Below are positions 5,629 through 59,453 of a stretch of 64,000 bases of DNA, one piece after another (positions within the stretch are counted from its first letter, which is position 1; each line of letters opens with the position of its first letter). This DNA comes from a bacterium (GTDB taxonomy: Bacteria > Zixibacteria > MSB-5A5 > WJJR01): assembly GCA_035559435.1 (NCBI GenBank), contig DATMBC010000103.1:75693-139692 (forward strand), read 5' to 3'. The notes beneath the pieces are model-generated. The model was not told the origin of the DNA. It did not search any database and worked only from the letters and a program-made list of their open reading frames with translations. A program made the position numbers and the translations under genes.

Positions 5629-5661
5629 CACGGGAGGAAGGGGCAACGCCCCTGCGCCATC

Positions 5662-6396: not shown

Positions 6397-6415
6397 TCTC
6401 CCTCCGCGGGCGTAA

Positions 6416-6436
6416 CAAGGGGCTCTCAGCCCCTTG
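6416..6436 (+). terminator. Hairpin after the creatininase-family gene
   Basis: A perfect 9-bp inverted repeat, CAAGGGGCT / AGCCCCTTG, with a 3-nt loop follows the stop by 20 bp. There is no U-tract, so it may only stabilise the 3' end. Confidence 0.4.
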
Positions 6437-6442
6437 CTCCCC

Positions 6443-6477
6443 CGAAATGAAAGAGGGCGAGTCACCGACCCGCCCTC
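6443..6477 (-). terminator. Rho-independent terminator of the minus-strand OMP operon
   Basis: On the minus strand a GAGGGCG/CGCCCTC stem (6471-6477 with 6453-6459) is followed by TTTCATTTC. It lies 22 bp beyond the stop of the gene ending at 6499. Confidence 0.6.
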
Positions 6478-6498
6478 AACTGCGTCTGACAATCCACC

Positions 6499-7818: not shown

Positions 7819-7852
7819 ACCGTTTACCGTCCTATTTCTCTGGATGACCTCG

Positions 7853-8485: not shown

Positions 8486-8645
8486 GTTCTACGCCTGCTC
8501 TCTGACAAACCGCTCTGCCGGTCCGAAGTTCCACTCATTCCTACACATGATAACGCGGGAATCTCCCCGCGACAGCGTCAATAAGACGCTCCCGACGCGA
8601 TTCCTGCCATCCTATTGTCCGCAATCACGATGCGGGTCGGGGCAC

Positions 8646-8677
8646 AAAAAGCACGACCGGGCACATGGCCCGGTCGT
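8646..8677 (-). terminator. Rho-independent terminator of the 8705-9526 gene
   Basis: A perfect 10-bp stem (8668-8677 with 8653-8662, ACGACCGGGC type) with a 5-nt loop is followed on the minus strand by GC and TTTTT (8646-8650). It lies about 30 bp after the stop. Confidence 0.8.
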
Positions 8678-8704
8678 TAGGGAAGAACCCGAGGTCAGAA
8701 ACGG

Positions 8705-9526
8705 CTAAAACGATTCCACGTAGATCAGCCGCAATTCGCGGCCAATGGTCGATGTGTGGCGGCGGTTGCTGGTCAGATCCTTCAAATTGAATTCCATCAG
8801 GATGCGGTCGAGCACTACCCAGCGCACTCCGGCGTTCAGGTATCCGTACCCGTCGCCCTGCGCCAACGGTTTCTTGTCGTCGTTGAGCGCCATGTCGTAT
8901 TCGGCGACCAGCCCGAGGTTGTTCTCAAACCGGATGTCGGTCCCGAAGAAGAAATTGAGATCCTCGTCGTTGTCGTCGGTCTCGCGCGAGTAGTTCAGCC
9001 CGGCGTGCAGACTCGAGGTGAACCCTGCTCCCTGAAAACCCTTGGAGCCGACGGCGTAAAATCCGCGCGACTTGGTCTCAAAGCGATCCAGCGTGTCGAT
9101 CCAGCGCCCGAATCCGATGTCCTCGTACCCGACCGCGATGCCCGGCAGGCTCATCGTCTCGGCGAGAATCTGAAACTTGGTGGTAAACTGCAGATGCGGG
9201 TTCCACCGCGGCGAATTGGCCGCGATGATGTCGGTGCCCCCGTATCCGATGCCCACCGTCCAGGCATTGGTCAAACCGATCTGCAGAATGCCCAGCATTC
9301 CCCCCTCGGGGAAGGCGCGCAATTCGGTGTCGAACGAGCCGCGCCGCAACGTGCCCGCAGTGGGGCAGTCGATCAGACGGCGCGGCGCCTGAAAGCCGTC
9401 GGTCCAAGACGATTCCACTGCATCACGTCGCGTCCGCCGCGAACTCTGCGCGTACAGGTCCTGCGCGGCCAGACACACCACGACCGCGCACACCAGCCCC
9501 ACAAGGGGCCAACGATATTTTGGCAT
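8705..9526 (-). CDS. Outer-membrane beta-barrel protein of unknown function
   Basis: 273 residues. It has a clean signal peptide (MPKYRWPLVGLVCAVVVCLAAQDLYAQ), then amphipathic beta strands throughout and a C-terminal strand ELRLIYVESF ending in Phe, as outer-membrane barrels do. Phrases such as RRGSFDTELRAFPEGGMLG and NAWTVGIGYGGTDII recall small barrel proteins found in uncultured FCB-type genomes, but I cannot name the family. A GGGGGAG ribosome site sits 5-6 nt before the ATG. A strong terminator after it isolates it from the next minus-strand genes. Confidence 0.65.
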   Translation of the reverse strand: MPKYRWPLVGLVCAVVVCLAAQDLYAQSSRRTRRDAVESSWTDGFQAPRRLIDCPTAGTLRRGSFDTELRAFPEGGMLGILQIGLTNAWTVGIGYGGTDIIAANSPRWNPHLQFTTKFQILAETMSLPGIAVGYEDIGFGRWIDTLDRFETKSRGFYAVGSKGFQGAGFTSSLHAGLNYSRETDDNDEDLNFFFGTDIRFENNLGLVAEYDMALNDDKKPLAQGDGYGYLNAGVRWVVLDRILMEFNLKDLTSNRRHTSTIGRELRLIYVESF

Positions 9527-9614
9527 ATTGCTCCCCCCTCGGATAACAACTCCCTGCCGAGTAAAAGATTCCCCCCACCGGAAAGGGTGTCAACAACAAT
9601 CCGGAGCGAGCGCG

Positions 9615-10472
9615 CTAATGCCCTTGATGCCAAGCGGTTATCTCGTCGGACACGCGCCGTCTGTAGGCGGCGATGATCCGACGGAAAACACTGGGCTGGG
9701 TGCCCTGCTGTCGCCAGTGTGTCTCGATGCGCTGCACAGCCACAACCCCGCGCAATGCCGATGCGACAAAGACAGCGTCGGCGTCCAACAGCAACTTCCA
9801 GGAGATGACCCGCTCTCGGCAGCGAATTCCCAATGTGTGGGCGATCTCGATGACCAATCCGCGTGTGATTCCGGCCAACGTCCCCTGATCGAGCCGCGGC
9901 GTGAGGATTTCTCCGCCACTGATGAGGAAGATCGATGACGCCGCGCCATCGGCGATTCGTCCGGCGGTGTTGAGGACCAATGCTTCATCGAAGTTGTGGC
10001 GGCGCGCCGTGGCTCCGGCGAAGATGTAGGGAAAATAGGCCAGCGTCTTGACGCCGGCGCCGGGGAAGGTCGGCTCCAGCCGCCAGGGAGCGACCCAAAG
10101 CCGCAACCCGCGGCGCGGATAGTGGGGATGCGCGCGCAGGCGCACAATGCGCGATGGGGCGACCGACGACATCGCGGAGCCGCGCGTCCAATAGCAGTTG
10201 ATCACCGCCTCGCGCTCCGCCGCGTGTTTCAACGCCCGGGTCACCGAACGGCGCCAGCGCTCCTGCTCTGTCGCCGGATCATCGTCCAGATCCAGTAGCG
10301 GCGCGGTCCGACACAGGCGTTCCAGATGCCGATCAAGAAAGAGCGGACAACCCTGATGGACACGGATCGTCTCGAAAAGCCCCCAGCCATAGCGGAAGGC
10401 CCAGTCATCGATGGAAATCATCGCCCGATCGGCGGGCACCATTCGGTCGTTAACGAGCGCGAGTTCCGCCAT
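9615..10472 (-). CDS. pabC: Aminotransferase class IV, probable 4-amino-4-deoxychorismate lyase PabC
   Basis: 285-residue PLP enzyme that would release pyruvate from aminodeoxychorismate to give p-aminobenzoate. It shows class-IV motifs: an N-terminal SIDDWAFRYGWGLFETIRV, the catalytic Lys in VKTLAYFPYIFAG (about K142), DEALVLNTAGRIADGAASSIFLI and GTLAGITRG. The ATG at 10472 overlaps the last 23 bp of pabB; an upstream open frame is shadow. Branched-chain aminotransferase and D-Ala aminotransferase are relatives, but fusion-like coupling to pabB supports PabC. Confidence 0.85.
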   Translation of the reverse strand: MAELALVNDRMVPADRAMISIDDWAFRYGWGLFETIRVHQGCPLFLDRHLERLCRTAPLLDLDDDPATEQERWRRSVTRALKHAAEREAVINCYWTRGSAMSSVAPSRIVRLRAHPHYPRRGLRLWVAPWRLEPTFPGAGVKTLAYFPYIFAGATARRHNFDEALVLNTAGRIADGAASSIFLISGGEILTPRLDQGTLAGITRGLVIEIAHTLGIRCRERVISWKLLLDADAVFVASALRGVVAVQRIETHWRQQGTQPSVFRRIIAAYRRRVSDEITAWHQGH

Positions 10473-11760
10473 GACCGGCCACCTCGATATCTGATGACTG
10501 CGTGATCCGACGCGGCGCCAGCGCCGCCACCAGCGGGGCGATCTTGATGAGCGATTCCTGGTGCTCCGCGTCGATGTCGGAGTCGGCGACAATCCCTCCG
10601 CCGCCGTAGAGACGGATCCGGTCGCCGACCTGCACCGCCGTGCGGATCGCGAGGGCGAAATCCGCGTCCCCGCGCGCGTCCACCCAGCCGTAGGCGCCGC
10701 AGTAGACGCCGCGCGCGATCAATTCGCGCTCGCCGAGTATCTCGACCGCGCGGCGCTTCGGCGCGCCGGTGATCGAGCCGCCGGGAAAGGTCGCCTTCAT
10801 GACATCCACCCAGGTCGTCTCCGGCGGCAACTGGGCGGTGACGGTCGACTCCAGATGCCACACCGAGGGAGTCCCGCGCACCCGGGCCAGCATCTCGGTG
10901 CGCACACTGCCGATCGCGGCGATCCGTCCGAGGTCGTTGCGCTCCAGATCGGTGATCATCAAAAGTTCGGCCCGATCCTTGGCGCTGGACAGCAGCGCCC
11001 GCCGCGCCTGACGATCAAGGCGGGCGTCGAACCGACGCGCCGTGGTCCCTTTGATCGGACGTGTCTCGATCAGACATCCGGTCTTCTTCCAGAATCTCTC
11101 GGGGGACGCAGCGATGATTGCCAGGCCGGGGAACTCCAGCAGGGCGTTGAAGGGCGCCGGCGCATGACGGCGAATGGATGCGAAATTCTCCGGGGGCGTG
11201 CTTCCGGTATGCAGATCGAATCCCTGCGTGTAATTGGCCTGGTAGATGTCGCCAGCGGCGATCAGCTCGAGGATCTCTGCGACATGACGGCAATATGTGG
11301 CCCGGTCCGTCAACGGGTTGACCAGTCGCTGCGCGGCGGGGTGAATCATGCTGGTCCGACCGGGTCTTCCCGCGGGCAGTGGCTCGCTGCCACTGAAGAT
11401 CAGAAACTGAATGTCGGGCACCTGAAGCCAGTCGCCGATGGCCGGCTGCGGGCGCGGCAGACTTAACCACTCATAGCCGGCCTCGTAAGCGATGTACCCA
11501 TACATGACCCCGGCCGCGCCTCTGCGGGATAGTTCGGCAAAGCGCCCGTGCAGGACCGCCAGCGGATCGCCTGTGCCGCATTCCATCCGGTCGGTGGCGG
11601 GATTGCGAAAACTCCAACGTCCCTGCTGGGCGACAAAGTGCCCGACACACCGACCACCCAACGATCCGTCGTGCCGCATGCCGGAACGCGGCCAGTTGTT
11701 CTCCAGACGCGCGCTGAGCGGTTCGTTCCGGGGGCGGAGAATGTCTGTGGCGGCAGTCAT
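10450..11760 (-). CDS. pabB: Aminodeoxychorismate synthase component I PabB
   Basis: 436 residues of the chorismate-binding family. The Lys of PIKGTTARR (chorismate C2-attacking Lys of PabB-type enzymes; anthranilate synthases have PIAGT) identifies it as PabB rather than TrpE. Other motifs are GDIYQANYTQ, DRAELLMITDLERNDLGRI and TFPGGSITGAPKRRAVEIL. The ATG at 11760 has no clear ribosome site and lies about 7 nt from the predicted transcription start, so it may be translated from a nearly leaderless mRNA. With pabC it forms the folate p-aminobenzoate branch; the glutaminase PabA is not in the window. Confidence 0.92.
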   Translation of the reverse strand: MTAATDILRPRNEPLSARLENNWPRSGMRHDGSLGGRCVGHFVAQQGRWSFRNPATDRMECGTGDPLAVLHGRFAELSRRGAAGVMYGYIAYEAGYEWLSLPRPQPAIGDWLQVPDIQFLIFSGSEPLPAGRPGRTSMIHPAAQRLVNPLTDRATYCRHVAEILELIAAGDIYQANYTQGFDLHTGSTPPENFASIRRHAPAPFNALLEFPGLAIIAASPERFWKKTGCLIETRPIKGTTARRFDARLDRQARRALLSSAKDRAELLMITDLERNDLGRIAAIGSVRTEMLARVRGTPSVWHLESTVTAQLPPETTWVDVMKATFPGGSITGAPKRRAVEILGERELIARGVYCGAYGWVDARGDADFALAIRTAVQVGDRIRLYGGGGIVADSDIDAEHQESLIKIAPLVAALAPRRITQSSDIEVAGHGGTRAR

Positions 11761-42952: not shown

Positions 42953-45868
42953 ATGAAGCCCCTTCCCCACCACCCCGTGGCCCCTTCCGGGCCGCCGCTT
43001 CAGCAGATTCAGTCGCTGCTGAACGACAAGAAATGGACTGAGGCCGCGGCGCAATTGGCCGACGCGCAGGCGCAGGCGATGAGCGACCCCCTCTCATCGA
43101 CCGCCGGCGAGTGGTGCCTGTTAAAGGCGCGGCTGGACTTGGCACAGTCCGACCACCGCTCCGCGGTCGATTGGGCCCGCCGGGCGCTGGCCGCCTTTGA
43201 ACGCAGCGCCGTCGATGATTTCCTCGGCGACACCCACAGCGCCCTCGGCTTGTCCTATCTCGGACTTGGCGACACCAAAAACGCGCTCATCCATGTGCGC
43301 GACGCGCTGGCCATCTACCGGCGCGTCGGCGACACCGCCGGCGTGATTCGCGCCCACAACGATATGGCGCGCGTCTACTTCGTGCGCGGTGAGCATGGCA
43401 ACGCGGTCGAGCATCTCGACGATGCCCTGCAGTTGGCCCGCGCGCAGCGCGACACCGATCGCGAGGCCATGCTCCTGGGCAATCTGGGCCGTGTCCATCT
43501 GTTGCAGGGGCGTTGGGATGACGCGCAGACGGCCCTGACGCAGGCGCATGCGCGCGCCGTCGCCATTCAGAATTGGACGTCTGCCGGTCGCAACCTGCTG
43601 TCGCTGGGGTACCTTGCGACCCTGCGCCATGAGTTCCGCGAGGCGGTTTCCCGGCTGGATGCGGCGCTCACCGCCATCGAGAAGGCCGGACTAGTCCGCG
43701 AGAAGGCCATCTACTTCGAGTATTCCGGCTGGTGCGAGTTCGAACAGCATCACTGGATCGCCGCCAAGGAAGCGTTCCGTCGCGCGCTCGAACTTGGACG
43801 GCGCATCGGCGCCGCCAACGATCTGATTTCACAGGCGCTGCGCGGCCTGGCCGAATGCGAAGCCGCGCTCGGCGACTGGACCGAGGCACGTCGTCTTGCC
43901 CAGGAGGGTCTCGAAGTCGCCATCCAGATCGGCGAGCGCGCCGAAGCGGGCAGTCTCTACCGCATTCTCGCCCGCGGGCTGGCCCATCAGCGCGAATCGG
44001 CCGAGGCGCTGGCCTGCCTCGAGAAGTCCGGCGAGTGTCTGCAGGCGGTCGGCGACCCCTACGAACTGGCGCGACTGGCCGAAGCCCGCGCCGATGTGCT
44101 CGACACGATCGGCGCGCCGGAGCGTGGAATGCTTGCCGCTCTCGACGAAGCGGCGACCCTCTATGCGCGTCTGGGCGCCCGCGACCAATTGTCGCAGGTG
44201 CAGATGCTGGCGATCGCCCAGCGGCGCGCGCGCGGTTTGATTGCCGAAGCGCTGACCTACGCGCGTCGCGCCATGACCGACGATGGCAGCCGCGCGGGCA
44301 TCAGTCTCGACGATAAGCAGCTTCTATCCGATCTGTCTGATGAGTGTGTGGCCCGCGCTACGTCGTCTGCCAACGAGTTCCGTCTGGCGGCCATGCCTTG
44401 GTCGGCGGCCGACGGCGATGAATTGCAGGCGGCGATCGAATTCTGCCGCAGCCGTCTTGGCGCCTCGCACGTCATCCTGATCGAAGTCACCTCCGGCGGC
44501 CAGCGCTCCGGACGCGTGCTGGCCTCTTCCGGCACGCCCGATGACTTTGCCAACGCCATCGCCGCGTTGGCCACCAACCCCTACCAGCACGATGTGCGCA
44601 CCGACCGTCCGCACTACTTCTGGATGACGGCGTTGGCGCCGCAACTTTATGCGCACCTGGCGGCGGTGACCGACGTCGTTCCCGTGTCGGTCATTACCGT
44701 GCCGGTCGACTTGGGCCCGCAGTCCACCGGGCTGCTTTATGTCGACGCGCTGCCGGATGCGCCGCGCGCCAACGGCGCGGGCTTCGAGCCGCGCGATCTC
44801 GACTTCGTCGTCGCCTACGCCGAAGTCGTCGCCTGGCGTTCGACCAGGTTGCGCTCCGAAGGGCTACTGCGCGATGTCCAGCGGCTGCGCAACCAGCTCG
44901 GCCGCGAGTGCGAATTCCCCAACATCATCACGCAAAACGCCGAGTTCCACGACACCCTGTCGCGGGTCCGCCTGATCGTCGATTCCGATGTCTCGGTGCT
45001 GCTGAACGGCGAAACCGGCACCGGCAAGGACCTGCTGGCCCGGGCGATTCACTATTCGAGCCGGCGGCGCGACAAGCGGTTTGTTTCGGTCAACTGCGCC
45101 GCGCTGCCCGAAACGCTGTTGGAAAGCGAACTGTTCGGTGTCAAGCGCGGCGCCTTCACCGGCGCCGACCGCGACAAACCCGGCTTGTTTGAGGAGGCCG
45201 ACGGCGGCACGTTCTTCCTCGATGAAATCGGCGAGATGCCGCTGTCGATCCAGGCCAAGCTGCTGCGTTTCCTCGAATCGAAGGAACTGACCCGTTTGGG
45301 CGACACCAAGCCGCGCCGCATCGACGTGCGCGTGATCTCGGCCACCAACCGCGACCTGACCAGCGAAATGGAGCGTGGCGCCTTCCGGCGCGATCTGTTC
45401 TACCGTCTGACGCCGGTCGCGTTTACCCTGCCGCCGCTGCGCGAGCGTCGCGAGGATATCCCGCTTCTGATCGACCACTTCCTGGCCGAACTGGGCGCCG
45501 AGGGACGCGCGGTGCGTTTCTCGGTCGAGGCGGTGCGTGTGCTGTCCGCCTACGATTGGCCGGGCAACATCCGCGAACTGGAAAATGAGATCCGCAAGAC
45601 GGTGTTGCTGACCGAGCCCGGCGCGACCATCGGACCCGAGCGGCTCTCGCGCAAGTTCTTTGCCGCCGCCGCGGCCGAGGAGACGCCCGCCGCGGCGATG
45701 CCCGATCGGTTCTCGCTTTATGACCACATCGCGCAGATCGAACGTCGCTACATTGTGCAGGCGCTCAACGAGGCCGGCGGCATCAAAAAGCACGCCGCCG
45801 CGCGGCTCGGTATCCCCGAATCGACGTTGCGCCTGAAGATGAAGCAGTACAGTCTCGACAGCGACTGA
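42953..45868 (+). CDS. Sigma-54-dependent transcriptional activator with N-terminal TPR array and GAF-like domain
   Basis: 971 residues. The first 450 or so are TPR helix pairs (ALIHVRDALAIYRRVGDTAG, AVEHLDDALQLARAQRD and similar). A GAF-like domain follows (about 465-640). The AAA+ sigma-54 domain spans about 650-890, with Walker A GETGTGKD (about 685-692), the sigma-54-contacting GAFTGAD (about 733), Walker B GGTFFLDEIGEMP and an R-finger region RRDLFYRL. A Fis-type HTH ends the protein (KKHAAARLGIPESTLRLKMKQY). No receiver domain is present, so input is by protein or ligand binding to TPR/GAF, not phosphorylation. Likely targets are the -24/-12 promoters next to it. Confidence 0.92.
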   Translation: MKPLPHHPVAPSGPPLQQIQSLLNDKKWTEAAAQLADAQAQAMSDPLSSTAGEWCLLKARLDLAQSDHRSAVDWARRALAAFERSAVDDFLGDTHSALGLSYLGLGDTKNALIHVRDALAIYRRVGDTAGVIRAHNDMARVYFVRGEHGNAVEHLDDALQLARAQRDTDREAMLLGNLGRVHLLQGRWDDAQTALTQAHARAVAIQNWTSAGRNLLSLGYLATLRHEFREAVSRLDAALTAIEKAGLVREKAIYFEYSGWCEFEQHHWIAAKEAFRRALELGRRIGAANDLISQALRGLAECEAALGDWTEARRLAQEGLEVAIQIGERAEAGSLYRILARGLAHQRESAEALACLEKSGECLQAVGDPYELARLAEARADVLDTIGAPERGMLAALDEAATLYARLGARDQLSQVQMLAIAQRRARGLIAEALTYARRAMTDDGSRAGISLDDKQLLSDLSDECVARATSSANEFRLAAMPWSAADGDELQAAIEFCRSRLGASHVILIEVTSGGQRSGRVLASSGTPDDFANAIAALATNPYQHDVRTDRPHYFWMTALAPQLYAHLAAVTDVVPVSVITVPVDLGPQSTGLLYVDALPDAPRANGAGFEPRDLDFVVAYAEVVAWRSTRLRSEGLLRDVQRLRNQLGRECEFPNIITQNAEFHDTLSRVRLIVDSDVSVLLNGETGTGKDLLARAIHYSSRRRDKRFVSVNCAALPETLLESELFGVKRGAFTGADRDKPGLFEEADGGTFFLDEIGEMPLSIQAKLLRFLESKELTRLGDTKPRRIDVRVISATNRDLTSEMERGAFRRDLFYRLTPVAFTLPPLRERREDIPLLIDHFLAELGAEGRAVRFSVEAVRVLSAYDWPGNIRELENEIRKTVLLTEPGATIGPERLSRKFFAAAAAEETPAAAMPDRFSLYDHIAQIERRYIVQALNEAGGIKKHAAARLGIPESTLRLKMKQYSLDSD

Positions 45869-45871
45869 CGA

Positions 45872-45889
45872 CGCCGCCAACGGCTTTTT
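45872..45889 (+). terminator. Short intrinsic terminator after the sigma-54 activator gene
   Basis: A GCCG-CCAA-CGGC hairpin followed by six T, a few bases after the TGA. A second hairpin, ATCGCCGCC/GGCGGCGAT, lies at about 45895-45922. The first stem is short, so efficiency is uncertain. Confidence 0.5.
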
Positions 45890-45959
45890 TGCCAGATCGC
45901 CGCCTGTGCCACGGGCGGCGATTTGCATTGGCGGGGCGGAGTCGTCTACATTGCCGACG

Positions 45960-46781
45960 ATGACGGCGCAGCATTCCGCGACCAACCCACCCACCCGGCG
46001 CGATCCGGCCATCGCGTCGGCGGCGACCCAGATGGCGATCGACGCGCACCTGTTGTCCCGCGCGGCGGCCTCCGATGCGGCAATCTTTCGCGTCTATCGC
46101 ATGGATCCACCCGCAATCACCATCGGCCGCCATCAGCGCTGGCGGCGGGTGGTGGATGAATCGGCGTGCGCGGCCAACGGCTGGGAGTGGACACGCCGTC
46201 CGACCGGCGGCGGCGCGTTGTTGCATCGCCACGAACTCAATTACGCCATCGCTGCGCCGCGCGGTCTTCTGGCGCCAACCGGAAGAGGCGAGTTCCACGC
46301 GGTCTTCGCGCAGATCGGTCGGTCGCTGCAGGCGGCATTGCGCGCCATGGGCTTTGATCCGCAATTGCACCAGGGGGATCGTGGCTCGCACTTGCCACAG
46401 CATGGGCTCTGTGGCCGATCGATCACCGGCCATGAATTGTCATTGGGGCCGCGCAAACTGATCGCGGCGGCGCAGTTGATCGCTCCGGAGGGAATTCTCC
46501 AGCACGGCACGATCTATATCCATGCCCCGCAAGCGCATGATCGTTTCTGGCCGATCGAGCCCACGCGCATTGATCCCCGGGCTGATTCCGAGCGCTGGGC
46601 CGATCTGGGGACAGTCTTCCAGGCGATGGATTGGCGAAGACTCGCCGCGCTCTTCGAGGACAACTTCACGCGACATTTCCCAGCCGCTTGTCGGGCATGT
46701 GAATTGGCGCTCCCGGACTGGGCGGAAATCGATGCGACTCTGGCCGCTTGGGATGCCCAGAACTGGGTCCGCAGCCGCTGA
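45960..46781 (+). CDS. Lipoate-protein ligase A family protein (BPL/LPL fold)
   Basis: 273 residues with the biotin/lipoate ligase fold: MAIDAHLL, PPAITIGRHQ, RRPTGGGALLHRHELNYAI (the conserved RRxxGGGxVxHxxxxNY motif), the adenylate-binding Lys in GPRKLIAAAQ, and ILQHGTIYI. It would attach lipoate or octanoate, or transfer it, to E2/GcvH lipoyl domains. It lacks the C-terminal accessory domain of E. coli LplA, so octanoyl-transferase (LipM-like) is an alternative. No lipoyl protein genes are adjacent. Confidence 0.82.
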   Translation: MTAQHSATNPPTRRDPAIASAATQMAIDAHLLSRAAASDAAIFRVYRMDPPAITIGRHQRWRRVVDESACAANGWEWTRRPTGGGALLHRHELNYAIAAPRGLLAPTGRGEFHAVFAQIGRSLQAALRAMGFDPQLHQGDRGSHLPQHGLCGRSITGHELSLGPRKLIAAAQLIAPEGILQHGTIYIHAPQAHDRFWPIEPTRIDPRADSERWADLGTVFQAMDWRRLAALFEDNFTRHFPAACRACELALPDWAEIDATLAAWDAQNWVRSR

Positions 46782-47079: not shown

Positions 47080-50000
47080 ATGAATCGACGGGGAACGGGG
47101 CGCTTCACACTGACAATTTCCATCGTCCTCATCGCGCTGGCGATTGTCGCGACGGCGGCCGACGTCTGGGCCGCCGGAGTCGGCAAGGTCTCCGGACTGG
47201 TCGTGGACAAGAAGACCAAGGAGCCTCTGATCGGCTGCCCGGTGCAGATCGAGGGGACGACGTTGGGCGCGCTGACGGACGTGGATGGACGCTACACGAT
47301 CCTGTCCGTGCCGCTGGGGTTGGTCTCGGTGGGTGCCAGGATGGTCGGCTACACACCGATGATCGTCTCGGACGTGACCGTGAAGCCCGACCAGACGTCC
47401 GTGGTCAACTTCGAACTGGAGGAAAGCGAAGTCCAGCTCGAGGCGGTCGTCGTGCGCGGCCGCGCCGAAATGATCCAGATGGACCAGGCGACGACCAAGC
47501 GCGACGTCACCGCCGAAAAGATCAAGACTCTGCCGGTCACCAATGTGGGTGACATTCTCAAGACGCAGGTCGGTGTGACCGTACGCAACGACCGTTTCCA
47601 CATCCGCGGCGGCCGTTCGACCGAACTGGTCTATGCGGTCGACGGTGTCACGCTCTCCGACCCGTTGGGTGGGCGCGGCGCGACCGCGGCGCTCAATTTG
47701 TCAGGCACTGAAATCGAGAACATTTCGATCGTCAAGGGCGCCTGGTCGCCCGAATACGGCGGCACATCGGGCATCGTCAACGTGGCCACCAAAGAGGGCG
47801 ATCCGCAGGTCACCCGCGGCCACTTGCAATACTTCACCGACGATTTTGGCACCTCGGCGCTGAACACCTATTCGCGCAACTTCCAGCGCATGGAGTTCAC
47901 GCTGGGCGGGCCGGATCCGATCTTCACCAACCGCCTGCTGCCGGCGCTGGGCATCAACGGCGCACAGGAGAAGCTGACCTACTTCATCAGTCTGGATTTT
48001 GACCGCTCCGACGGCGCCTTCGACTGGGATCGTTACACCTCCCCGACCCGGCCGGCGCGCTACCGCGACATCAAATTCCTTGGCATGGTTTTCAGCGAGC
48101 GCCAGAACAACTCCGGGAACGCCCTGCTGAAGCTGACCTACCGGCTCACTCCCGATATCCGTGTCACCGGGCAGTACAAGAAGACTTACGAGCGCAACCA
48201 GCAGTGGAGCTGGGCCTACCGCTACACTCCGAATTCACAGGACTGGATCGAGGACGAAAACGACTTCTACAGCGTCCGCTGGGTTCACAACCTGGGGCCG
48301 TCGACATACTACGAAGTGCTGTACTCCGACTTCGTGCGCAACTATTGGGAAAAGCCCGGCGATCCGAACAAGCCGGGTGGCACCATGAGTCCCGATGACT
48401 TCCTGTTTGATTTCCAGGCCGATAAATTTCTCGACGTCAACGGCAACGGCGTCTGGGATGCGCCGGAGCAGTGGATCGAGATTTATCCCGACGGCCAGTA
48501 CAACTTCGGTGATATCTTCGAAGATCGTGACGGCAACGGTATCTTCGATCCGCAACAGACGCCGGCCGACACGACTTACGACAGTCTGATCTTCGACTTC
48601 AACGGCAACGGCACCTACGACTTCTCCTCCGGCGAGCCGTACCTCGACGCCAACAAGAACGGCGTTTATGATGAGGGCGATCTCCTTACGCAGGACGGCA
48701 ACGGCAACGGCACCTACGATCCCGACCGCGAGCTGAATCGGTTCGACGGCGAGTCGACGTCCCCCAACGACAACCCCGAGCCGTTTGTCGACGGCGATGT
48801 TTCCAAGGGCGAGCCATTCGTTGACGTCAACCGCAACGGCGTCTGGGATGGCCCGGGCGTGCTGCCGGGATACCCGTTGGGCGAACCGTTCACCGACTTG
48901 TCGCACGATGGCAAGCGCCAGAGTTCGGAGGACCCCTGGGTGCCGGGGATTCCGTTTGAGGATCTCAATGGCAACGGGTCGTACGATCCGGGCGCGGCGT
49001 CGCCGTCGGGTTCGTGGTCGAACCTGGACGAGAACTACGACATTGGTGAGCCGTATCTCGATGTGAACGGCGACGGCGAGCGTGATCGTCGCGACGGCTA
49101 CTACGATCTGGGTTGGGACCGCAGTGCCACCTGGCATGAGCGCAAACCGCGCACACGCACGATCAAGGCCGATCTGGTCAGCCAGATGCGCCGCGAGCAC
49201 GAAGTGAAAATGGGGTTGTCGTACTCGGCCTTCGACCTCATCTACAATGAATTGCAGCAGCCCTACGTGCCGTACACGCTGGGTTTTGACGGCGGCCCCT
49301 TCCCGTTCCGCGGCGCCATCCGCAACTTCTACCATCAGACCCCGAAGACCGGCGCGGTCTACCTGGTCGACAAGATGGAATACGGCCAGATGGTGGCGCA
49401 GGTCGGTTTCCGCTACGAGTACTTTGTGCAATCCAGCAACGCCGAGACCACCGACACCGCGCGCGCCGATTCCGTCGGTGTCGAGGATTATCGCGACAAG
49501 TTCGCGCCGCGCCTGGCTTTCTCGTATCCGATCTCCGACAAGGCGAAAGTCTTCTTCAACTACGGCCACTTTTACCAGTTGCCGCAGATGCACTTCATGT
49601 ACCGCCGCAACACGCAGTTGGGCAACGTCTCCGGCACCATCGGCAACGTAAACCTCGACTTCGTCAAGACGATCAAGTACGAATTCGGTGTCCAGTATCT
49701 GCTGTCGCCGGAGTATCTGCTCTCGGTGCAGGGGTTCTACTCCGACGACTTTGCGCGCGTCTCCGAATCGGAGGCGCAGGGGCAGACGACGCTCGAAGAG
49801 CAGAACTACTACGAGAACTCCGACTACTCGCGCACCCGCGGCCTGGAAGTCGAGCTGGATAAGAAATACGGCAACTACGTATCCGGCTCGATGACCTACA
49901 ACTTTTCCTACGCCTACGGCAAATCGTCGGCGGAGGCGCTCGATTACTTCGACAACTTCTACGCCCGCTCCGGCGGCCGTTTCGTCATCCAGGAATTCCC

Positions 50001-50472
50001 GCTGGATTGGGACGAGCGCCACAAGGTGACGTTCATTCTCGACCTGCGCGTGCCGGCCAACGATCATCCCAAGCTGTTCGGGTTGACGTTGCCGGACAAC
50101 TTCGGGTTGAACATCTTCTGGCAGTACGGGTCGGGTTTCCCCTACACGCCGACGAAGGATCACCCGGGCATCGCCTCGCAGCTGGCGCCGGGGCAGGAGC
50201 CGCTGGCCAATTCCGAGCGTTATCCGGCCACCAGCAACGTCGACATCCGATTCAACAAGGACTTCAAGATCGGCCCGATGGATTACACCATCGAGCTGTG
50301 GGTCAACAACTTGTTTGACAACCGGGATGTGGTGGCCGTCTACAGCGCCACCGGCCGTCCCGAATCCGGTCTGGTCAATGAGTCGGTGGTGCTGGAGAGC
50401 AACGGGGAACCGAGCCCGACCAACTGGACCGCACGCCGGCAGATCCGGCTCGGGCTGGGTGTCAATTTCTGA
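47080..50472 (+). CDS. TonB-dependent receptor with carboxypeptidase-like N-domain and tandem DxNxNGxxD insert
   Basis: 1130 residues. A signal peptide (about 1-32) precedes a carboxypeptidase-regulatory-like domain (about 35-120: KVSGLVVDKKTKEPLIGCPVQIEGT). The plug (about 130-240) has NVGDILKTQVGVTVRNDRFHIRGGRSTELVYAVDGV. The barrel ends QIRLGLGVNF. Between about 441 and 680 the barrel is interrupted by at least eight copies of a D-x-N-x-N-G-x-x-D motif (DVNGNGVWD, DRDGNGIFD, DFNGNGTYD, DANKNGVYD, DGNGNGTYD, DVNRNGVWD, DLNGNGSYD, DVNGDGERD), the calcium-loop pattern of dockerin/TSP3 repeats, probably an extracellular loop. The ATG at 47080 has GGGGAGG upstream. First of a four-gene cluster. 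Confidence 0.9.
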   Translation: MNRRGTGRFTLTISIVLIALAIVATAADVWAAGVGKVSGLVVDKKTKEPLIGCPVQIEGTTLGALTDVDGRYTILSVPLGLVSVGARMVGYTPMIVSDVTVKPDQTSVVNFELEESEVQLEAVVVRGRAEMIQMDQATTKRDVTAEKIKTLPVTNVGDILKTQVGVTVRNDRFHIRGGRSTELVYAVDGVTLSDPLGGRGATAALNLSGTEIENISIVKGAWSPEYGGTSGIVNVATKEGDPQVTRGHLQYFTDDFGTSALNTYSRNFQRMEFTLGGPDPIFTNRLLPALGINGAQEKLTYFISLDFDRSDGAFDWDRYTSPTRPARYRDIKFLGMVFSERQNNSGNALLKLTYRLTPDIRVTGQYKKTYERNQQWSWAYRYTPNSQDWIEDENDFYSVRWVHNLGPSTYYEVLYSDFVRNYWEKPGDPNKPGGTMSPDDFLFDFQADKFLDVNGNGVWDAPEQWIEIYPDGQYNFGDIFEDRDGNGIFDPQQTPADTTYDSLIFDFNGNGTYDFSSGEPYLDANKNGVYDEGDLLTQDGNGNGTYDPDRELNRFDGESTSPNDNPEPFVDGDVSKGEPFVDVNRNGVWDGPGVLPGYPLGEPFTDLSHDGKRQSSEDPWVPGIPFEDLNGNGSYDPGAASPSGSWSNLDENYDIGEPYLDVNGDGERDRRDGYYDLGWDRSATWHERKPRTRTIKADLVSQMRREHEVKMGLSYSAFDLIYNELQQPYVPYTLGFDGGPFPFRGAIRNFYHQTPKTGAVYLVDKMEYGQMVAQVGFRYEYFVQSSNAETTDTARADSVGVEDYRDKFAPRLAFSYPISDKAKVFFNYGHFYQLPQMHFMYRRNTQLGNVSGTIGNVNLDFVKTIKYEFGVQYLLSPEYLLSVQGFYSDDFARVSESEAQGQTTLEEQNYYENSDYSRTRGLEVELDKKYGNYVSGSMTYNFSYAYGKSSAEALDYFDNFYARSGGRFVIQEFPLDWDERHKVTFILDLRVPANDHPKLFGLTLPDNFGLNIFWQYGSGFPYTPTKDHPGIASQLAPGQEPLANSERYPATSNVDIRFNKDFKIGPMDYTIELWVNNLFDNRDVVAVYSATGRPESGLVNESVVLESNGEPSPTNWTARRQIRLGLGVNF

Positions 50473-50531: not shown

Positions 50532-53159
50532 ATGCAGCAGCAAGTAACAGGATGTGGATGGCGACGTCGGTTTGGCCGATCGGCCGTGTGGGCCGGGATG
50601 GCCCTTCTCCTGCTGACGGGAGAGGCGGGGGCGGCGCTGGATCCGAAGGCAGTCGAGCACACCAAACAGCGGGCCGAGGACCTGGTGGCCCCGGCCGCGC
50701 CGGTGATTCACCGCCGCGTGCACTACACCGGCGACATCTGGATGACCATCTCCAACGACGGTTCGCTGGGCACCAACTCCGGTGAAGCGCTCCCGGATCC
50801 GCAGGACCGCGCCGACTTGGGCATCACGTATGGTCCGTCGTTTGAGTTCCCCGCCGGGACGCGTGTGGACTATCTGTTCAACGGCAGTCTCTGGATCGGC
50901 GGCATCGTTGGCACGGACACGCTCTTGAGCGCGCAAAAAAGCTCGGGTAGCGGCGACGCTAATGAGTGGAACGGCTTCACGCAGATCATGCCGGGCGTGG
51001 TCTCCCACTACCCCGGGGAATGCGACACCATCACCCGCAGACTGACACAGGCCTACACGGCGGTCTACCAGGACACGCTGGTTCTGCCGACGACCAACGA
51101 TCCGTCGGGGCGCCTGCATCTGCCGCTGGGGTTGGAGGTCGTGCAGACCACGCACCAATCGGCCGACAACTTCACCCGCCGCTTCGTCATCTACGACTAC
51201 AAAATCACCAACATTTCCGCACGTCCGATCGAGAAGATGTGGTTCGCCATCTTCCTCGACAACGACATCTTCTGGGAAAATATCAGTGGTTGCCCGGAGC
51301 CGGGGCCATCGGATGACCTGTCGGGGTGCCTGAAGACCTGGCCCAACCCGGTCAATCCAATCTATTCCGATTCGCTGCTGGTTGCCTACGCGATGGATAA
51401 CGACGGCGACGCATGCGGTTCGGGCCGCTTCCCGCGGGTCTCGGCGCGCGGCGCGATGGGTGTCCGCGTGCTGCGCGGGCCGACACCGGAGTCGCACACC
51501 AATTTCAACTGGTTTACGACCAACTTCAGCAACATCGACTGGGGTCCGCGCAAGATCACCGACAACTACAACTTCGGCACCGGCGGCACCGGGTTGCCGG
51601 GCGGCGACGCGGCCACCTACCACGTCATCTCCAACGGCGAGATCGACTACGATCAATGTTTCTCGGCGATCGACTTCCGTCCCGAATGGCAGGCGCCGCT
51701 GCGCGGCAATGCCGCCGACAACGTCGCCAACGGTCTGGACTCGCGCATCTGCATTTCATCCGGCCCTCTGCCGGTGCTGGGTGTGGGGCAGTCGACGAAC
51801 TTTACGGTGGCTTTTATCGCCGGCGGGAACGTCCACCGCGATCCGACCAACACGCTGGATGTGCGCAATCCGCAGGCCTTCGTCGACAAACTGGACTTCA
51901 GCGACCTGGCCACCAACGCCTGGTGGGCTGGGTTTGTGTGGGACAACTACGGCACCGACACCGACGGCGACGGTTACGCCGGCGAGTTTTATCGGCCGGT
52001 GATCGGCGGCGACACGGTGTACTACACCGGTGACGGTTGCCCGGATCTGTCGGGTCCCGCGCCGCCGCCCGGGCCGGACACGGCGAACTCCGATCTGCGC
52101 ATTGAGTCTCGTCCCGGTGAGTTGATCCTGCGCTGGTCCGGACGGACGGTCGAAACCAACATCGACCCGTTGCTGCGCGTTCCCGACTTCGAGGGGTACC
52201 GCGTCTATATTGTCGAACGCAACTCCCCGAAGGACCAGCCCAGCTCCGAGGACTATTCGCTGATCGCCTCATGGGACAAGATTGACTTCCGGCGTTACAC
52301 TTACAACGAACGCAATGGATCGTGGGTGATGGATTCCGATCCGTTGACCAACGACGGATGGCGCGAGTTCTTCAATGACCCCGAGTTCAACGCGACCGAT
52401 CATCCCGGTCCGTCGCTGGCCACCGCGTACGAGTACCTTGACGAGGAAGGCAAGCCGCAGCGCGCCTACTTCGCTCCGCACGAGGTCAATCAGGCAAACG
52501 AGTATCTGGTCGCGGGTGAAGTGGAGCGGAACCTGATTCAGCAGGTGGCGGTGCACGATACCGTGATTGACGAAAAGGCCTACCAATACGGCGAATACGA
52601 ATTGCATTTGAAGGGTCTGCTGCAGTCGCGGCACTATTTCCTCAGTTTGACCGCATTCGACTTCGGCGATCCGTTCAACAACCTCGAGCCGCTGGAGACG
52701 TCGGTTGGCGCGATCGGCAGCCGGCGCGTCGGCTTGCCCACGTACTCCGCGGATGTCGTCGCCGACTACACCGAGCGCGGCGGCGTTTACGCCGACTCGG
52801 TGCGCGTGTCGGTCTATCCGAATCCGTACAAGATCAACTTCCGCGACGCCAACGGCAAACTGACGTCCTACTTCGAGCAGGGGTATGAGGGCACGGTGGG
52901 GCAGACGACGTTGAATGAGGAGGATCGCCGCATCCACTTCATCAACGTGCCGGACACGTGCACGATCAACATCTACACGCTCGACGGCGACCTGGTCCGG
53001 ACGCTGACACACCCGGACGACCACCTGTCGGGATACTCGTCGAAGATTTCCTGGGACCTGATCTCGCGCAACACGCAGGCGGTGACGTCAGGGATCTATT
53101 TGTACCGCGTGGATTCGCGGTTCGGATCGCAGGTGGGCAAGATCGTCATCATTAAGTAA
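50532..53159 (+). CDS. Large secreted protein with C-terminal sorting-type domain
   Basis: 875 residues, function unknown. It has a signal peptide (RRRFGRSAVWAGMALLLLTGEAGA), a long all-beta ectodomain, a DTDGDG Ca-type loop at about 475 and a fibronectin-like segment (SDLRIESRPGELILRWSGR). The last 100 residues are a T9SS/FlgD-like sorting domain (VSVYPNPYKINF, INIYTLDGDLVRTL, ISWDLISRNTQAVTSGIYLYRV, GKIVIIK). AGGAG lies 6 nt before the ATG at 50532. It sits between the receptor and a PorV gene, so it is probably exported cargo acting with the receptor at the surface. Confidence 0.8.
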   Translation: MQQQVTGCGWRRRFGRSAVWAGMALLLLTGEAGAALDPKAVEHTKQRAEDLVAPAAPVIHRRVHYTGDIWMTISNDGSLGTNSGEALPDPQDRADLGITYGPSFEFPAGTRVDYLFNGSLWIGGIVGTDTLLSAQKSSGSGDANEWNGFTQIMPGVVSHYPGECDTITRRLTQAYTAVYQDTLVLPTTNDPSGRLHLPLGLEVVQTTHQSADNFTRRFVIYDYKITNISARPIEKMWFAIFLDNDIFWENISGCPEPGPSDDLSGCLKTWPNPVNPIYSDSLLVAYAMDNDGDACGSGRFPRVSARGAMGVRVLRGPTPESHTNFNWFTTNFSNIDWGPRKITDNYNFGTGGTGLPGGDAATYHVISNGEIDYDQCFSAIDFRPEWQAPLRGNAADNVANGLDSRICISSGPLPVLGVGQSTNFTVAFIAGGNVHRDPTNTLDVRNPQAFVDKLDFSDLATNAWWAGFVWDNYGTDTDGDGYAGEFYRPVIGGDTVYYTGDGCPDLSGPAPPPGPDTANSDLRIESRPGELILRWSGRTVETNIDPLLRVPDFEGYRVYIVERNSPKDQPSSEDYSLIASWDKIDFRRYTYNERNGSWVMDSDPLTNDGWREFFNDPEFNATDHPGPSLATAYEYLDEEGKPQRAYFAPHEVNQANEYLVAGEVERNLIQQVAVHDTVIDEKAYQYGEYELHLKGLLQSRHYFLSLTAFDFGDPFNNLEPLETSVGAIGSRRVGLPTYSADVVADYTERGGVYADSVRVSVYPNPYKINFRDANGKLTSYFEQGYEGTVGQTTLNEEDRRIHFINVPDTCTINIYTLDGDLVRTLTHPDDHLSGYSSKISWDLISRNTQAVTSGIYLYRVDSRFGSQVGKIVIIK

Positions 53160-53188: not shown

Positions 53189-54136
53189 ATGATGCATATG
53201 AGACAGATGATCAAATGGGCCGCGGTCGCGGCGGGGTTGGCCTGGCTGTCGGCCCCCGGCGCGCGGGCCCAGGACAAGGTCGGCACGACCGGCGCGCAGT
53301 TTCTCGAAGTGGGTGTGTCGCCCCGCGCGGACGCGATCGGCGGCGCCTTCACCGCGATCGCCGATGATGCCTCCGCGATCTATTACAACCCGGCGGGACT
53401 GGTCCAACTGGAAAACCGCCAGGTGATGGTTTCGCTCATCGACTACCCGGCCGATATCAGTTACTCGTTTGTCGGCATCGCCGTCCCGGTCAGTTTCGGC
53501 GGCGTCATCGGCTTCGGCTACTATGGTCTCGACGCCGGCGACATGGACGTCACCACGCCCGAGCATCCCAACGGTGTGGACGGCTGGACCTTCGGCGCCA
53601 AGGACTACGCGCTGAGTCTTTCCTACGGCCGGTTCTTGACCGACCGTTTCTCGCTGGGCGTGACGGTGAAGCTGATCGATGAACTCTACGAGGAAGAGCG
53701 CTCCACCGGCTGGGCGGCGGATGTCGGCACCCAGTACAACACCGGCTGGCGCAATTTCAAGATCACGATGTTGATGTCGAACTTCGGACCCGACATGAAA
53801 TTCATCGCGCAGGAGTATCCGCTGCCGATCAACTTCAAGTTCGGCGGCGCGGTCGACGTGCTCGACAACCCCGGCCACCACGCGATCTTCGCCATCGAGG
53901 GATCGCACCCCGCCGACAACCGCGAAAAATACAACGTCGGGCTGGAATACACCTTCCGCAACTTCGCCTCCTTCCGCGCCGGCCAGCGCTTCGAGCATGA
54001 CCTGGGCGGCCTCAGCGTCGGCGGCGGGGTGAATTTCAACCTGAGTGAGAAGTACAAGGCCCGTCTCGACTACGGCTACCAGGACTTCGAGGCGCTCAGC
54101 GAGATTCACCGCTTTTCGCTCACGGTTGACTTTTAG
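53189..54136 (+). CDS. PorV/PorQ-family outer-membrane protein
   Basis: 315 residues. After a signal peptide ending GARAQ comes the diagnostic PorV/PorQ opening GAQFLEVGVSPRADAIGGAFTAIADDASAIYYNPAGL. It is followed by barrel strands with a C-terminal HRFSLTVDF ending in Phe. In T9SS bacteria PorV binds cargo carrying C-terminal sorting domains. The neighbours on both sides (a protein with such a domain upstream, a lipoprotein downstream) fit that picture, but no PorKLMN or SprA gene is in the window. Confidence 0.85.
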   Translation: MMHMRQMIKWAAVAAGLAWLSAPGARAQDKVGTTGAQFLEVGVSPRADAIGGAFTAIADDASAIYYNPAGLVQLENRQVMVSLIDYPADISYSFVGIAVPVSFGGVIGFGYYGLDAGDMDVTTPEHPNGVDGWTFGAKDYALSLSYGRFLTDRFSLGVTVKLIDELYEEERSTGWAADVGTQYNTGWRNFKITMLMSNFGPDMKFIAQEYPLPINFKFGGAVDVLDNPGHHAIFAIEGSHPADNREKYNVGLEYTFRNFASFRAGQRFEHDLGGLSVGGGVNFNLSEKYKARLDYGYQDFEALSEIHRFSLTVDF

Positions 54137-56552: not shown

Positions 56553-56567
56553 GTAACCCCCGTTGTG

Positions 56568-59453
56568 ATGAAGTATCTAGCCCTTTTCGCAATCCTGCTG
56601 TTTTTGCTCCCGGCCGTCGCGGGGCAGGGCGCCGTGTTGTCGGCTCGTCAGCAGTTGGTGATCGCGCCCGAACTGCTCGATCGACTGGCGGCCGATGCCG
56701 GCGATGCGACCTACGACGTCCTCGTCCGATTCGAATCTTCCGATCGCCCTTCGACCCGCGTGAACTCTCTGGCGGCTTCCGCGGGCAGTCTCCGCGATCG
56801 TTACCAGCGCGTCAGCGCCCACCTGCACACGGCGGCGGCGACCATCCCGACGATCACCGGCAATGCCACGGTCGTGCGCCGCTTCTGGATCGCCAACCTC
56901 GCCCTGATTCGTCTCGATCGCGACGCGCTGCTGGCGTTGGCGGAGCGCGACGATGTCACCATGATTGCGCCGGATGCGACCATTGAGCTGTTGCAGCCGG
57001 TGTCGATCGTCGATGCTGTGGCGACAAGCGCCGGCGCCGCGCCGAATCTGCCGGCGATCGGGGCGCGCACGCTATGGGCGCGTGGCCTGACCGGCAAGGG
57101 CCGTCTGGTCGCTTCAATCGACACCGGCGTCGAAGGCATTCATCCCGCCCTCTCGGATCGCTGGCGCGGCGTGCACGGCGACACCGCCGCGTCCTGGTTT
57201 GATCCGCTCAATGGCCCGGCGCCGATGGACAACAACGGCCATGGCACCCACGTCATGGGCATCATGGTCGGGCGCGCAGGCGCCGACACCATCGGCCTGG
57301 CGCCCGACGCCGAATGGATCTCCGCCGCGGTGGTTGACCGCGGACGCTCGCTGTCGGTGACCTTTTCCGACATTCTCGCCGCGCTGGAGTGGGTCGTGGA
57401 TCCCGACGGCAATCCCGCGACGATGCACGATGTCCCGGATGTGGTCTGCAATTCCTGGGGCGTGTCGCAGCAGATCATCAACCCGTGCAACACCATGTTC
57501 TTTGAGGCGATCGACAACGCCGAGGCGATGGGAGTGGTATGCATCTTCGCCGCCGGCAACGAAGGCCCCAACGCCATGACGATCCGCAACCCCGCCGATC
57601 GGGCGACCTCGCCAACGGCGTCGTTTTCGGTCGGAGCCGTGGACGCCAATCTCGCCACGCTCGACGTCGCCGGCTTTTCCAGCCGCGGTCCCTCGGCCTG
57701 CGACGGCAGCGCCAAGAAGCCCGAAATTGTCGCCCCCGGTGTCGCGATTCGTTCGGCTTACAAGGGACAGACTTACAAATTGATCAACGGCACTTCGATG
57801 GCCGCGCCGCATGTGGCCGCGGCGGTCGCGCTCCTGCGCCAATTCAATCCCGAACTGACGCCCGAGGAAATCAAGACCGCGCTGCTGACCACCGCGCGCG
57901 ACATCGGCCCCGCGGGGGAAGACAACGCCTCCGGCTACGGCCTGCTCGATCTGGAAGCCGCGCTCGCCTCCCTGCCTTCGCCGTACTATCCCGTGGTCAC
58001 CACCGGTCCGGTGGCGCTCGATCCGGCCGGCGACGGCGTCCCGGCGCTCGGCGAGACGGTTGACTTGATCATCCCCGTGCATGCCGATGCCGCCGACGCG
58101 CGCAACGTGACCTTGAACCTGACGTCGCTGTGCAGCTCCGCGCAGGTGCTTGCCGGCAGCGCCTATCTCGGCACCGTGCCGGCCGGCGGCAGCGTCGACA
58201 ATTCCTCCGCGCCGTTTGTCATCGCCGTCTCGCCGCAATCGGTGGCCGGCGACACCGCCTGGTTCGAGGTCTCGACGTCGGGTGAGCCGCTGCTTGGCTG
58301 GTGGCGCGACACCATCGGCGTGATGGTCGGCTTGCCCGAGGGCGCAGTAGTCACCTCGGCCTCCGCGGGAGTCTCGGCATTGACCGTTTCGAATCTCGGC
58401 CATCTCGGCCTCGGCGCCGGCTCGGTGCTCAACGCCGGGGGAGAGGGATGGCGCACCGGGATGATCGCCGCCGACCTCCTCTATGAGGCGTCGCTGTTCG
58501 CTTCGTCGGGGGATGGCGGCTGGGCCGACGCGTCCCGTCAGCCCGATGGCACCCTGCGCTTCGACTTCGCGCCCCTGTCTGCCTCGGCGTTCGATGACTC
58601 GCACGCCGCATCGCCGGTGGGGATCACGGTTCGCCAGTTGGCGCCGGTGTTCCACGCCGCCGGCGACCAGGACGCGGTCACGCTCGCCTGGGTGATCCAC
58701 AATCGCGGCGACGTCGCCATTCCCGGCTTCCAGCTTGGCTGGGTGTTTGATCTCGATCTGCCCTCGGTCGGCATCATCGATGAGCGGGTCGGCTTCGACG
58801 CGGCCAGCGGCGGCTTTTTCCATCAGGCGCCGGCCGGTGAATTCGTCGCCGGTGTGGCGCCGCTGTCCGGCGCGTTCGGTGGTCTGCGCTTCTTCGAAAA
58901 CAACGATGTCAAAACCGGCCTGACCGATTTGCAGAAGCGCGCGGCGCTCTCGGGCACGGCCAGCGCCCCGTCGTCCAGCGGCGATTTCCTCGCAGTGGCC
59001 TCCACCGCGGCGGTCGATCTGTCGCCGGGAGACAGCATCGTGGTCGCCATCGCGCTGATCGGCGCCCCCACGGCCGGCTCGTTCTCCGCCGCGGCGCGCG
59101 ACGCCTATCTCCGCTGGGCGCAGATGAGCGACGCCGGCGACGACCAGGGCGGCACGGTGGTTCCCGCCGATTTCCGTCTCGATCAGAACTATCCCAATCC
59201 GTTCAACGCCGGCACCACGATCCCGGTGGCGATGGCCGGCGATGGCGCCCGCGCAGTGCGGCTGGAGATTATCGATCTGCTCGGACGCCGGGTGCGCACG
59301 CTGGTTGATGAGACGATGTCACCCGGCCAGTATCCGGTTTTCTGGAACGGCTGCGACGACAATGGCCGGGCGCTGGCCTCCGGCGTCTACTTCTCCCGTC
59401 TGGTGATCGAAGGCCGGGCATCGCAGGCGCGCGCCATGGTCCTGCTCAAATGA
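56568..59453 (+). CDS. Secreted subtilisin-like serine protease (S8) with C-terminal sorting-type domain
   Basis: 961 residues. The signal peptide (MKYLALFAILLFLLPAVAG) is followed by an I9-like propeptide (about 25-145) and the S8 catalytic domain. The full triad is visible: D185 (SIDTGVEG), H225 (NGHGTHVMG) and S410 (NGTSMAAPHV), with oxyanion Asn in NSWGV. Beta-rich domains follow (about 470-850). The last 80 residues are a sorting domain (DQNYPNPFNAGTTIPV, LEIIDLLGRRVRTL, ASGVYFSRLV, MVLLK). It is an active exported protease by all visible residues. A -24/-12 promoter-like element touches its start. Confidence 0.92.
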   Translation: MKYLALFAILLFLLPAVAGQGAVLSARQQLVIAPELLDRLAADAGDATYDVLVRFESSDRPSTRVNSLAASAGSLRDRYQRVSAHLHTAAATIPTITGNATVVRRFWIANLALIRLDRDALLALAERDDVTMIAPDATIELLQPVSIVDAVATSAGAAPNLPAIGARTLWARGLTGKGRLVASIDTGVEGIHPALSDRWRGVHGDTAASWFDPLNGPAPMDNNGHGTHVMGIMVGRAGADTIGLAPDAEWISAAVVDRGRSLSVTFSDILAALEWVVDPDGNPATMHDVPDVVCNSWGVSQQIINPCNTMFFEAIDNAEAMGVVCIFAAGNEGPNAMTIRNPADRATSPTASFSVGAVDANLATLDVAGFSSRGPSACDGSAKKPEIVAPGVAIRSAYKGQTYKLINGTSMAAPHVAAAVALLRQFNPELTPEEIKTALLTTARDIGPAGEDNASGYGLLDLEAALASLPSPYYPVVTTGPVALDPAGDGVPALGETVDLIIPVHADAADARNVTLNLTSLCSSAQVLAGSAYLGTVPAGGSVDNSSAPFVIAVSPQSVAGDTAWFEVSTSGEPLLGWWRDTIGVMVGLPEGAVVTSASAGVSALTVSNLGHLGLGAGSVLNAGGEGWRTGMIAADLLYEASLFASSGDGGWADASRQPDGTLRFDFAPLSASAFDDSHAASPVGITVRQLAPVFHAAGDQDAVTLAWVIHNRGDVAIPGFQLGWVFDLDLPSVGIIDERVGFDAASGGFFHQAPAGEFVAGVAPLSGAFGGLRFFENNDVKTGLTDLQKRAALSGTASAPSSSGDFLAVASTAAVDLSPGDSIVVAIALIGAPTAGSFSAAARDAYLRWAQMSDAGDDQGGTVVPADFRLDQNYPNPFNAGTTIPVAMAGDGARAVRLEIIDLLGRRVRTLVDETMSPGQYPVFWNGCDDNGRALASGVYFSRLVIEGRASQARAMVLLK

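Follow-up and report, generated by a model that had tools for sequence, protein, structure and literature searches.

A Conserved Domain of Calcium-Type Loops Interrupts the Barrel of a TonB-Dependent Receptor in Candidatus Zixiibacteriota

Introduction

Why is the barrel of a TonB-dependent receptor interrupted by a long, acidic array of loops that resemble calcium-binding ones? The question is raised by a gene in a 64,000-nucleotide stretch of DNA from a member of the Zixibacteria (the window; contig DATMBC010000103.1 of assembly GCA_035559435.1, positions 75,693 to 139,692). A preliminary description of the locus had proposed that the array forms an external arm, stiffened by calcium, that binds substrate or a secreted protein encoded beside the receptor. 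The analysis presented here shows that the array is real and that it forms a conserved domain, not described before, on a receptor of known type. An open-access literature search, outside which most subscription journals lie, returned no reports of calcium arms in TonB-dependent receptors, and open-access searching gave nothing relevant on type IX secretion in Zixibacteria.

Domain Architecture of the Receptor

The features of the receptor and of the genes that follow it are given in Table 1.

Table 1. Features of the receptor gene and its downstream neighbors (positions in the window)
Feature	Residues	Positions	Strand	Comment
TonB-dependent receptor with calcium-type loop arm	1130 aa	47080..50472	+	Start ATG 47080
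Putative signal peptide	~1-31	47080..47172	+	Read by eye from sequence
CarbopepD_reg_2 domain	37-125	47188..47454	+	PF13715, 63.9 bits (cut-off 32.2)
Plug domain	135-229	47482..47766	+	PF07715, 44.7 bits (cut-off 23.9)
Barrel strands 1-7	246-424	47815..48351	+	DSSP, low-confidence AlphaFold2 model
Arm (predicted extracellular loop L4)	425-690	48352..49149	+	Net charge -40
Loop 1, DVNGNGVWD	452-460	48433..48459	+	
Loop 2, DRDGNGIFD	482-490	48523..48549	+	Relaxed motif
Loop 3, DFNGNGTYD	506-514	48595..48621	+	
Loop 4, DANKNGVYD	523-531	48646..48672	+	
Loop 5, DGNGNGTYD	539-547	48694..48720	+	
Arm core	~567-668	48778..49083	+	Starts E-P-F-x-D-G-D; common to ~340-aa lipoproteins
Loop 6, DVNRNGVWD	582-590	48823..48849	+	
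Loop 7, DLSHDGKRQ	606-614	48895..48921	+	Degenerate here; DLNxNGxYD in orthologs
Loop 8, DLNGNGSYD	628-636	48961..48987	+	
Loop 9, DVNGDGERD	661-669	49060..49086	+	Relaxed motif
Barrel strands 8-22	691-1130	49150..50469	+	DSSP, low-confidence model
Secreted protein with type IX-like C-terminal sorting domain (T9-CTD)	895 or 875 aa	50472 or 50532..53159	+	
PorV/PorQ-family outer-membrane barrel		53189..54136	+	NF033709, 205.6 bits (cut-off 90)
Cassette lipoprotein	698 aa	54169..56265	+	No known family; Cys34 invariant in 14 relatives

The N-terminal part of the receptor matches the SusC/RagA model TIGR04056 with 79 bits, which is under the curated cut-off of 368.25. The barrel model PF00593 matches five of the eight orthologs scanned and not the window receptor. 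The segment LEAVVVRG (residues ~121-128) resembles a TonB box by eye only. The interruption of the barrel, originally put at ~240 residues, is confirmed and comprises ~266 residues (425-690). This arm is rich in D, G, P, and N, and its net charge of -40 compares with -16 for the rest of the presumed mature protein (834 residues). A 642-residue open frame that runs antisense to the receptor (48235-50163, minus strand) is probably a shadow ORF arising from the high GC content of the coding DNA.

Strand order was taken from an AlphaFold2 model computed with eight sequences, which is poor (mean pLDDT 42.8, pTM 0.39) and was used only for this purpose and for a Foldseek comparison; a second AlphaFold2 model, of the arm region alone, was useless (mean pLDDT 37.3). 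In the low-confidence receptor model, DSSP counts 22 regular strands, from 246-253 to 1120-1129, with the insert connecting strand 7 (409-424) to strand 8 (691-704). The last strand of a TonB-receptor barrel ends in the periplasm, and strand parity counted back from it assigns the insert to extracellular loop L4. Among the orthologs, all long loops lie on the same side as the insert, and the turns opposite to it mostly have medians of 2-5 residues, together with one constant 17-residue turn. At the L4 place, five other receptors from this genome, all of them loop-free, harbor 68-178 residues and no loops. A Foldseek search with the low-confidence model returned only TonB-dependent receptors as top matches, which supports the family and not the details. 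Placement of the arm in L4 is thus supported by the model, albeit weakly. The external position proposed earlier agrees with this predicted topology, in which the motifs lie, at low confidence, on the extracellular side and not in periplasmic turns, and with the occurrence of the arm core in lipoproteins (see below).

Loop Motifs and Their Relation to Calcium Sites

Two patterns were used to define the loops: an exact one, D-x-N-x-N-G-x-x-D, and a relaxed one, Dx[DNS]x[DNS]Gxx[DNQSE]. The arm has six exact motifs (residues 452, 506, 523, 539, 582, and 628) and nine relaxed ones, i.e., the same six and those at 482, 606, and 661; none is found elsewhere in the receptor. The “at least eight” motifs first reported therefore hold for the relaxed form and not for the exact form. 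In 1000 shuffles of the insert, the mean was 0.004 exact motifs (maximum of 1) and ~0.10 relaxed motifs (maximum of 2), so the motif density is not due to composition.

Position statistics were obtained from 539 loops starting with Dx[DNS]x[DNS]G, a search pattern that constrains positions 1, 3, 5, and 6 and leaves positions 9 and 12 free. At the pattern-constrained positions 3 and 5, N or D is present in 97% and 98% of the loops, respectively. D is found at position 9 in 86% of the loops and Y, W, or F at position 8 in 84%, whereas position 12 is D or E in 45%, about half of the loops having no acidic residue there. A common sequence ahead of the loops is G-E-P-F/Y. E463, which corresponds to EF-hand position 12 of loop 1, is present in every aligned ortholog. 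The statistics of positions 9 and 12 indicate that the loops are a mix of two forms, one EF-hand-like with 12 residues and one dockerin/TSP3-like with 9, bearing out the EF-hand/dockerin-type residue pattern that had been noticed at the outset.

The loops share the D-x-N/D-x-N/D-G-x-x-D spacing of dockerin, TSP3, and EF-hand loops, yet no Pfam family, including these three, matches the arm over its cut-off. Against Dockerin_1 (PF00404), the window arm scores 10.6 bits (cut-off of 22.9), and, of 36 arms compared with this model, 4 give a match at E ≤ 1; EF-hand_8 touches one of the 36 (E of 0.14), and no TSP3 model is among the matches listed. A search of solved structures with the arm profile gave no significant match. 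The best one, the self-processing module of FrpC (PDB 6sjx), belongs to a secreted protein with DLNGNG repeats, but its E value of 0.59 is not significant.

The motifs could alternatively be Asx-turn repeats that bind no calcium. Most loops have N rather than D at positions 3 and 5, which, along with the 45% of acidic residues at position 12 and the sub-threshold Pfam scores, would be compatible with such turns. Asp, however, is invariant at position 1, where the pattern fixes it, and its 86% occurrence at position 9 is dockerin/TSP3-like, making this explanation very improbable.

Conservation within the Phylum

Relatives in named genome contigs are nearly all from Candidatus Zixiibacteriota, and none were found in viral contigs. 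The receptor is matched in all 133 genomes of the phylum. An insert profile (A5), built from 36 orthologs and applied at E ≤ 1e-20, matches 126 of the 133 genomes and 78 of the 79 good ones; the seven genomes with no insert match include low-completeness ones. The search of related genomes for loop arrays in TonB receptors, suggested in the preliminary description, has located the insert in most of the phylum. In the profile search, the armed receptor is nearly always present as one per genome.

Across 73 aligned orthologs, the insert measures 206-355 residues between its anchors and contains 4-12 relaxed loops. Inside the insert fall 501 of the 504 relaxed loops, and these stay at fixed positions within the phylum. 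The acidic residues D452, E463, D523, D539, D571, D573, E578, D582, D606, and D661 are at or near 100%, and the invariants outside the loops include D571-G572-D573 and G577-E578. The mean majority-residue frequency is 0.65 for residues 551-690 versus 0.51-0.62 for the other stretches compared, the figure for the insert being pushed up somewhat by its D/N/G composition and by the motif-driven alignment. Receptor loops usually change fast. At most, it is claimed from the alignment that the insert appears to be conserved at least as well as the barrel, which is unusual in an external loop.

Occurrence of the Arm Core in Lipoproteins

A profile search also detected the arm core in separate proteins of 328-376 residues from a dozen genomes of the phylum. 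All 14 such proteins read have a lipoprotein-like N terminus, in which a hydrophobic stretch leads to a conserved cysteine; the arm core comes next, and twelve columns are invariant between the core in the window and 13 aligned lipoproteins. Since the core is present in lipoproteins as well, it can be regarded as a movable domain of two kinds of envelope protein. Its recurrence in separate lipoproteins also rules out random expansion as the origin of the insert. Judged from its sequence, the insert is an autonomous domain that present domain libraries do not cover.

In the lipoproteins of loci L169-L180, the core is located near the N terminus, and two of them match DUF3108_like at the C-terminal end.

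Gene Neighborhood and Type IX Secretion

The receptor is followed by genes for a T9-CTD protein, a PorV/PorQ-family barrel, and a lipoprotein; 29-32 bases separate the genes downstream of 53159 and of 54136. The secreted product originally described (50532-53159) is indeed encoded there, and its C terminus gives a weak type IX-like match, the PorU model being the only one matched (17.5 bits versus a cut-off of 420). In permissive searches (E ≤ 0.01), 15 of 18 relatives of this protein match NF052228 (PorZ) and 7 match TIGR04183. A PorV-family gene lies within 6.5 kb downstream of the receptor in 59 of the 62 phylum loci with enough sequence; it directly follows the receptor in 35 of these and follows the T9-CTD gene in 24.

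The 35 cassettes lacking a T9-CTD gene were considered as evidence against service of the arm to T9-CTD proteins, and this argument was dismissed because T9-CTD genes are found elsewhere. Several full-length relatives are present at other sites in each of 12 such genomes searched, and strong matches (E ≤ 1e-100) occur in 132 of the 133 phylum genomes, at counts of 1 to 7 per genome that are lower bounds, seven candidates having been scored per genome. In some lineages, the T9-CTD gene has apparently moved out of the cassette and increased in copy number, and the copies elsewhere indicate that the receptor and the T9-CTD family go together. On the basis of the cassette and the co-occurrence in 132 of 133 genomes, a putative partnership of the receptor with the co-encoded secreted protein is favored. 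This evidence speaks for the receptor and not for the arm in particular.

Six and five T9-CTD genes with 42-70% mutual identity are arranged in tandem on contig 1 of genome G027 and contig 3 of genome G028, respectively (L181 and L182). Such arrays could represent a diversifying surface-protein family.

SprA is the usual type IX translocon. It is encoded in this genome (TIGR04189, 480 bits versus a cut-off of 200) and matched in 130 of the 133 phylum genomes. Its presence bears on a possible function of the receptor as an export port that moves or assembles surface proteins, as Oar does with PopC, the arm being an external platform for folding or release. The PorV-family and T9-CTD genes of the cassette would fit such a port, and Oar from Myxococcus xanthus, a TonB-dependent transporter considered for outward protein traffic, is required for PopC secretion (PMC6434023). 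For the armed receptor, in contrast, a role in export is speculative, and its likeness to Oar lies in the described role. Oar is not known to have a calcium arm. Because SprA is present, a second port is unneeded for the export of T9-CTD proteins; an export role is therefore less likely and is considered quite improbable.

A second cassette of receptor, T9-CTD, and PorV-family genes, with a loop-free receptor, is found on contig 52 of the same genome (L115 of G000; 4570-7584, 7602-10649, and 10570-11709). In the window, the gene at 56565-59453, downstream of the cassette, encodes a protein that is subtilase-like by eye and has a region near its C terminus, YPNPFN...GVYFSRL, that looks like a type IX sorting domain. 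Upstream, at 42953-46781, are genes for a TPR/sigma-54-type regulator and a lipoate ligase-like protein (by eye), which adjoin the receptor in many genomes of the phylum.

Armed Receptors in Other Phyla

A wider search identified strong receptor relatives in genomes from other phyla, of which 20 loci were read. Receptors with at least four loops, mostly in L4, are present in 14 of these loci. T9-CTD and PorV genes lie downstream in 13 of the 14 (within 6.5 kb in 12 and at 7.85 kb in one), while the locus of the remaining receptor ends at a contig end. Two further outside receptors, which are loop-poor, are likewise at contig ends. Loop-free receptors can have the same T9-CTD and PorV neighbors, as is the case for two outside the phylum (L158 and L160) and one in this genome, which indicates that the arm is not required for the cassette partnership. 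A single origin of the arm is disfavored by a barrel-only tree, in which a few of the loop-free receptors from other phyla are nested, with modest support, among armed ones. This mixing suggests that the arm was gained or lost more than once outside the phylum.

L4 varies widely outside the phylum, with 191-578 residues and 4-13 loops. This variation, as well as the strong negative charge of the arm, would be accommodated by a structural or protective role, with the arm acting at the surface as a spacer that binds cations, either bridges lipopolysaccharide or covers the pore, and has no specific partner. Nonetheless, the fixed loop positions and the non-loop invariants (D571-G572-D573 and G577-E578) exceed the needs of a spacer, and a role of this kind has a correspondingly small chance of being correct.

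Comparison with Known Receptors and Proposed Role

BtuB, the cobalamin receptor of E. coli, harbors two calcium sites in its extracellular loops, formed by a cage of five aspartates, and its binding of cobalamin is ~1000-fold weaker at sub-saturating calcium (PMC7360065). Both BtuB and the armed receptor are TonB-dependent receptors with acidic extracellular loops that use calcium, as shown for the former and proposed for the latter. However, the sites in BtuB lie within ordinary loops, whereas here one loop gives way to a ~266-residue domain that contains nine loop motifs.

By analogy to BtuB, in which calcium orders loops around vitamin B12 (PMC7360065), the protein may be a plain uptake receptor whose calcium-ordered loop captures the imported ligand, with the type IX genes being incidental or suppliers of surface proteins only. 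The best Foldseek matches of the low-confidence query are import receptors, including calcium-bound BtuB, and armed receptors are nearly always single-copy, in contrast to the multicopy T9-CTD proteins. Uptake alone is nevertheless somewhat unlikely, considering that lipoproteins, which lack a barrel, also contain the arm core, that the PorV cassette is conserved, and that one fixed arm is found phylum-wide where the specificity of capture loops would be expected to change fast.

SusCD, BtuB-BtuG, and XusAB from Bacteroidota provide a further comparison, as they too combine an N-terminal carboxypeptidase-regulatory-like domain with a surface partner. In contrast to these systems, the partner candidates of the armed receptor carry putative type IX sorting domains, and no SusD match was seen.

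The reading preferred here, with a probability of about 0.45, is that the insert is an arm made rigid by calcium, used for docking or capture on a receptor complex linked to type IX secretion; for this arm, we infer calcium binding, stiffening, and docking. In the proposed mechanism, the acidic domain of EF-hand/dockerin-like loops would take the place of extracellular loop L4, and calcium at the cell surface would fold and stiffen these loops into an arm above the receptor pore. The receptor would act in an outer-membrane unit together with the PorV/PorQ-family barrel, the lipoprotein, and T9-CTD surface proteins. The most likely role of the arm would be that of a docking or capture surface for T9-CTD surface proteins or their ligands, comparable to the SusD or BtuG lids on their own receptors. 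The conserved association of the receptor with PorV-family and T9-CTD proteins points to possible docking of one of these, or of a ligand that they deliver, by the arm.

Significance

Nearly every genome of an uncultivated phylum retains this large, acidic domain in a receptor loop, and several other phyla have it as well. Its phylum-wide retention and the reuse of its core in lipoproteins point to a core surface part of these bacteria. The linkage to PorV-family and T9-CTD genes offers a testable bridge between TonB-dependent transport and type IX secretion. A more far-reaching possibility, which is unlikely, is that the arm is the first known member of an undescribed family of extracellular calcium-loop domains, on the receptor and on lipoproteins, and couples the TonB-energized receptor to type IX secretion, with arms folded by calcium docking a family of T9-CTD surface proteins onto the unit of receptor and PorV. 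If such coupling were true, the surface layer of a whole phylum would be assembled or used via one conserved receptor.
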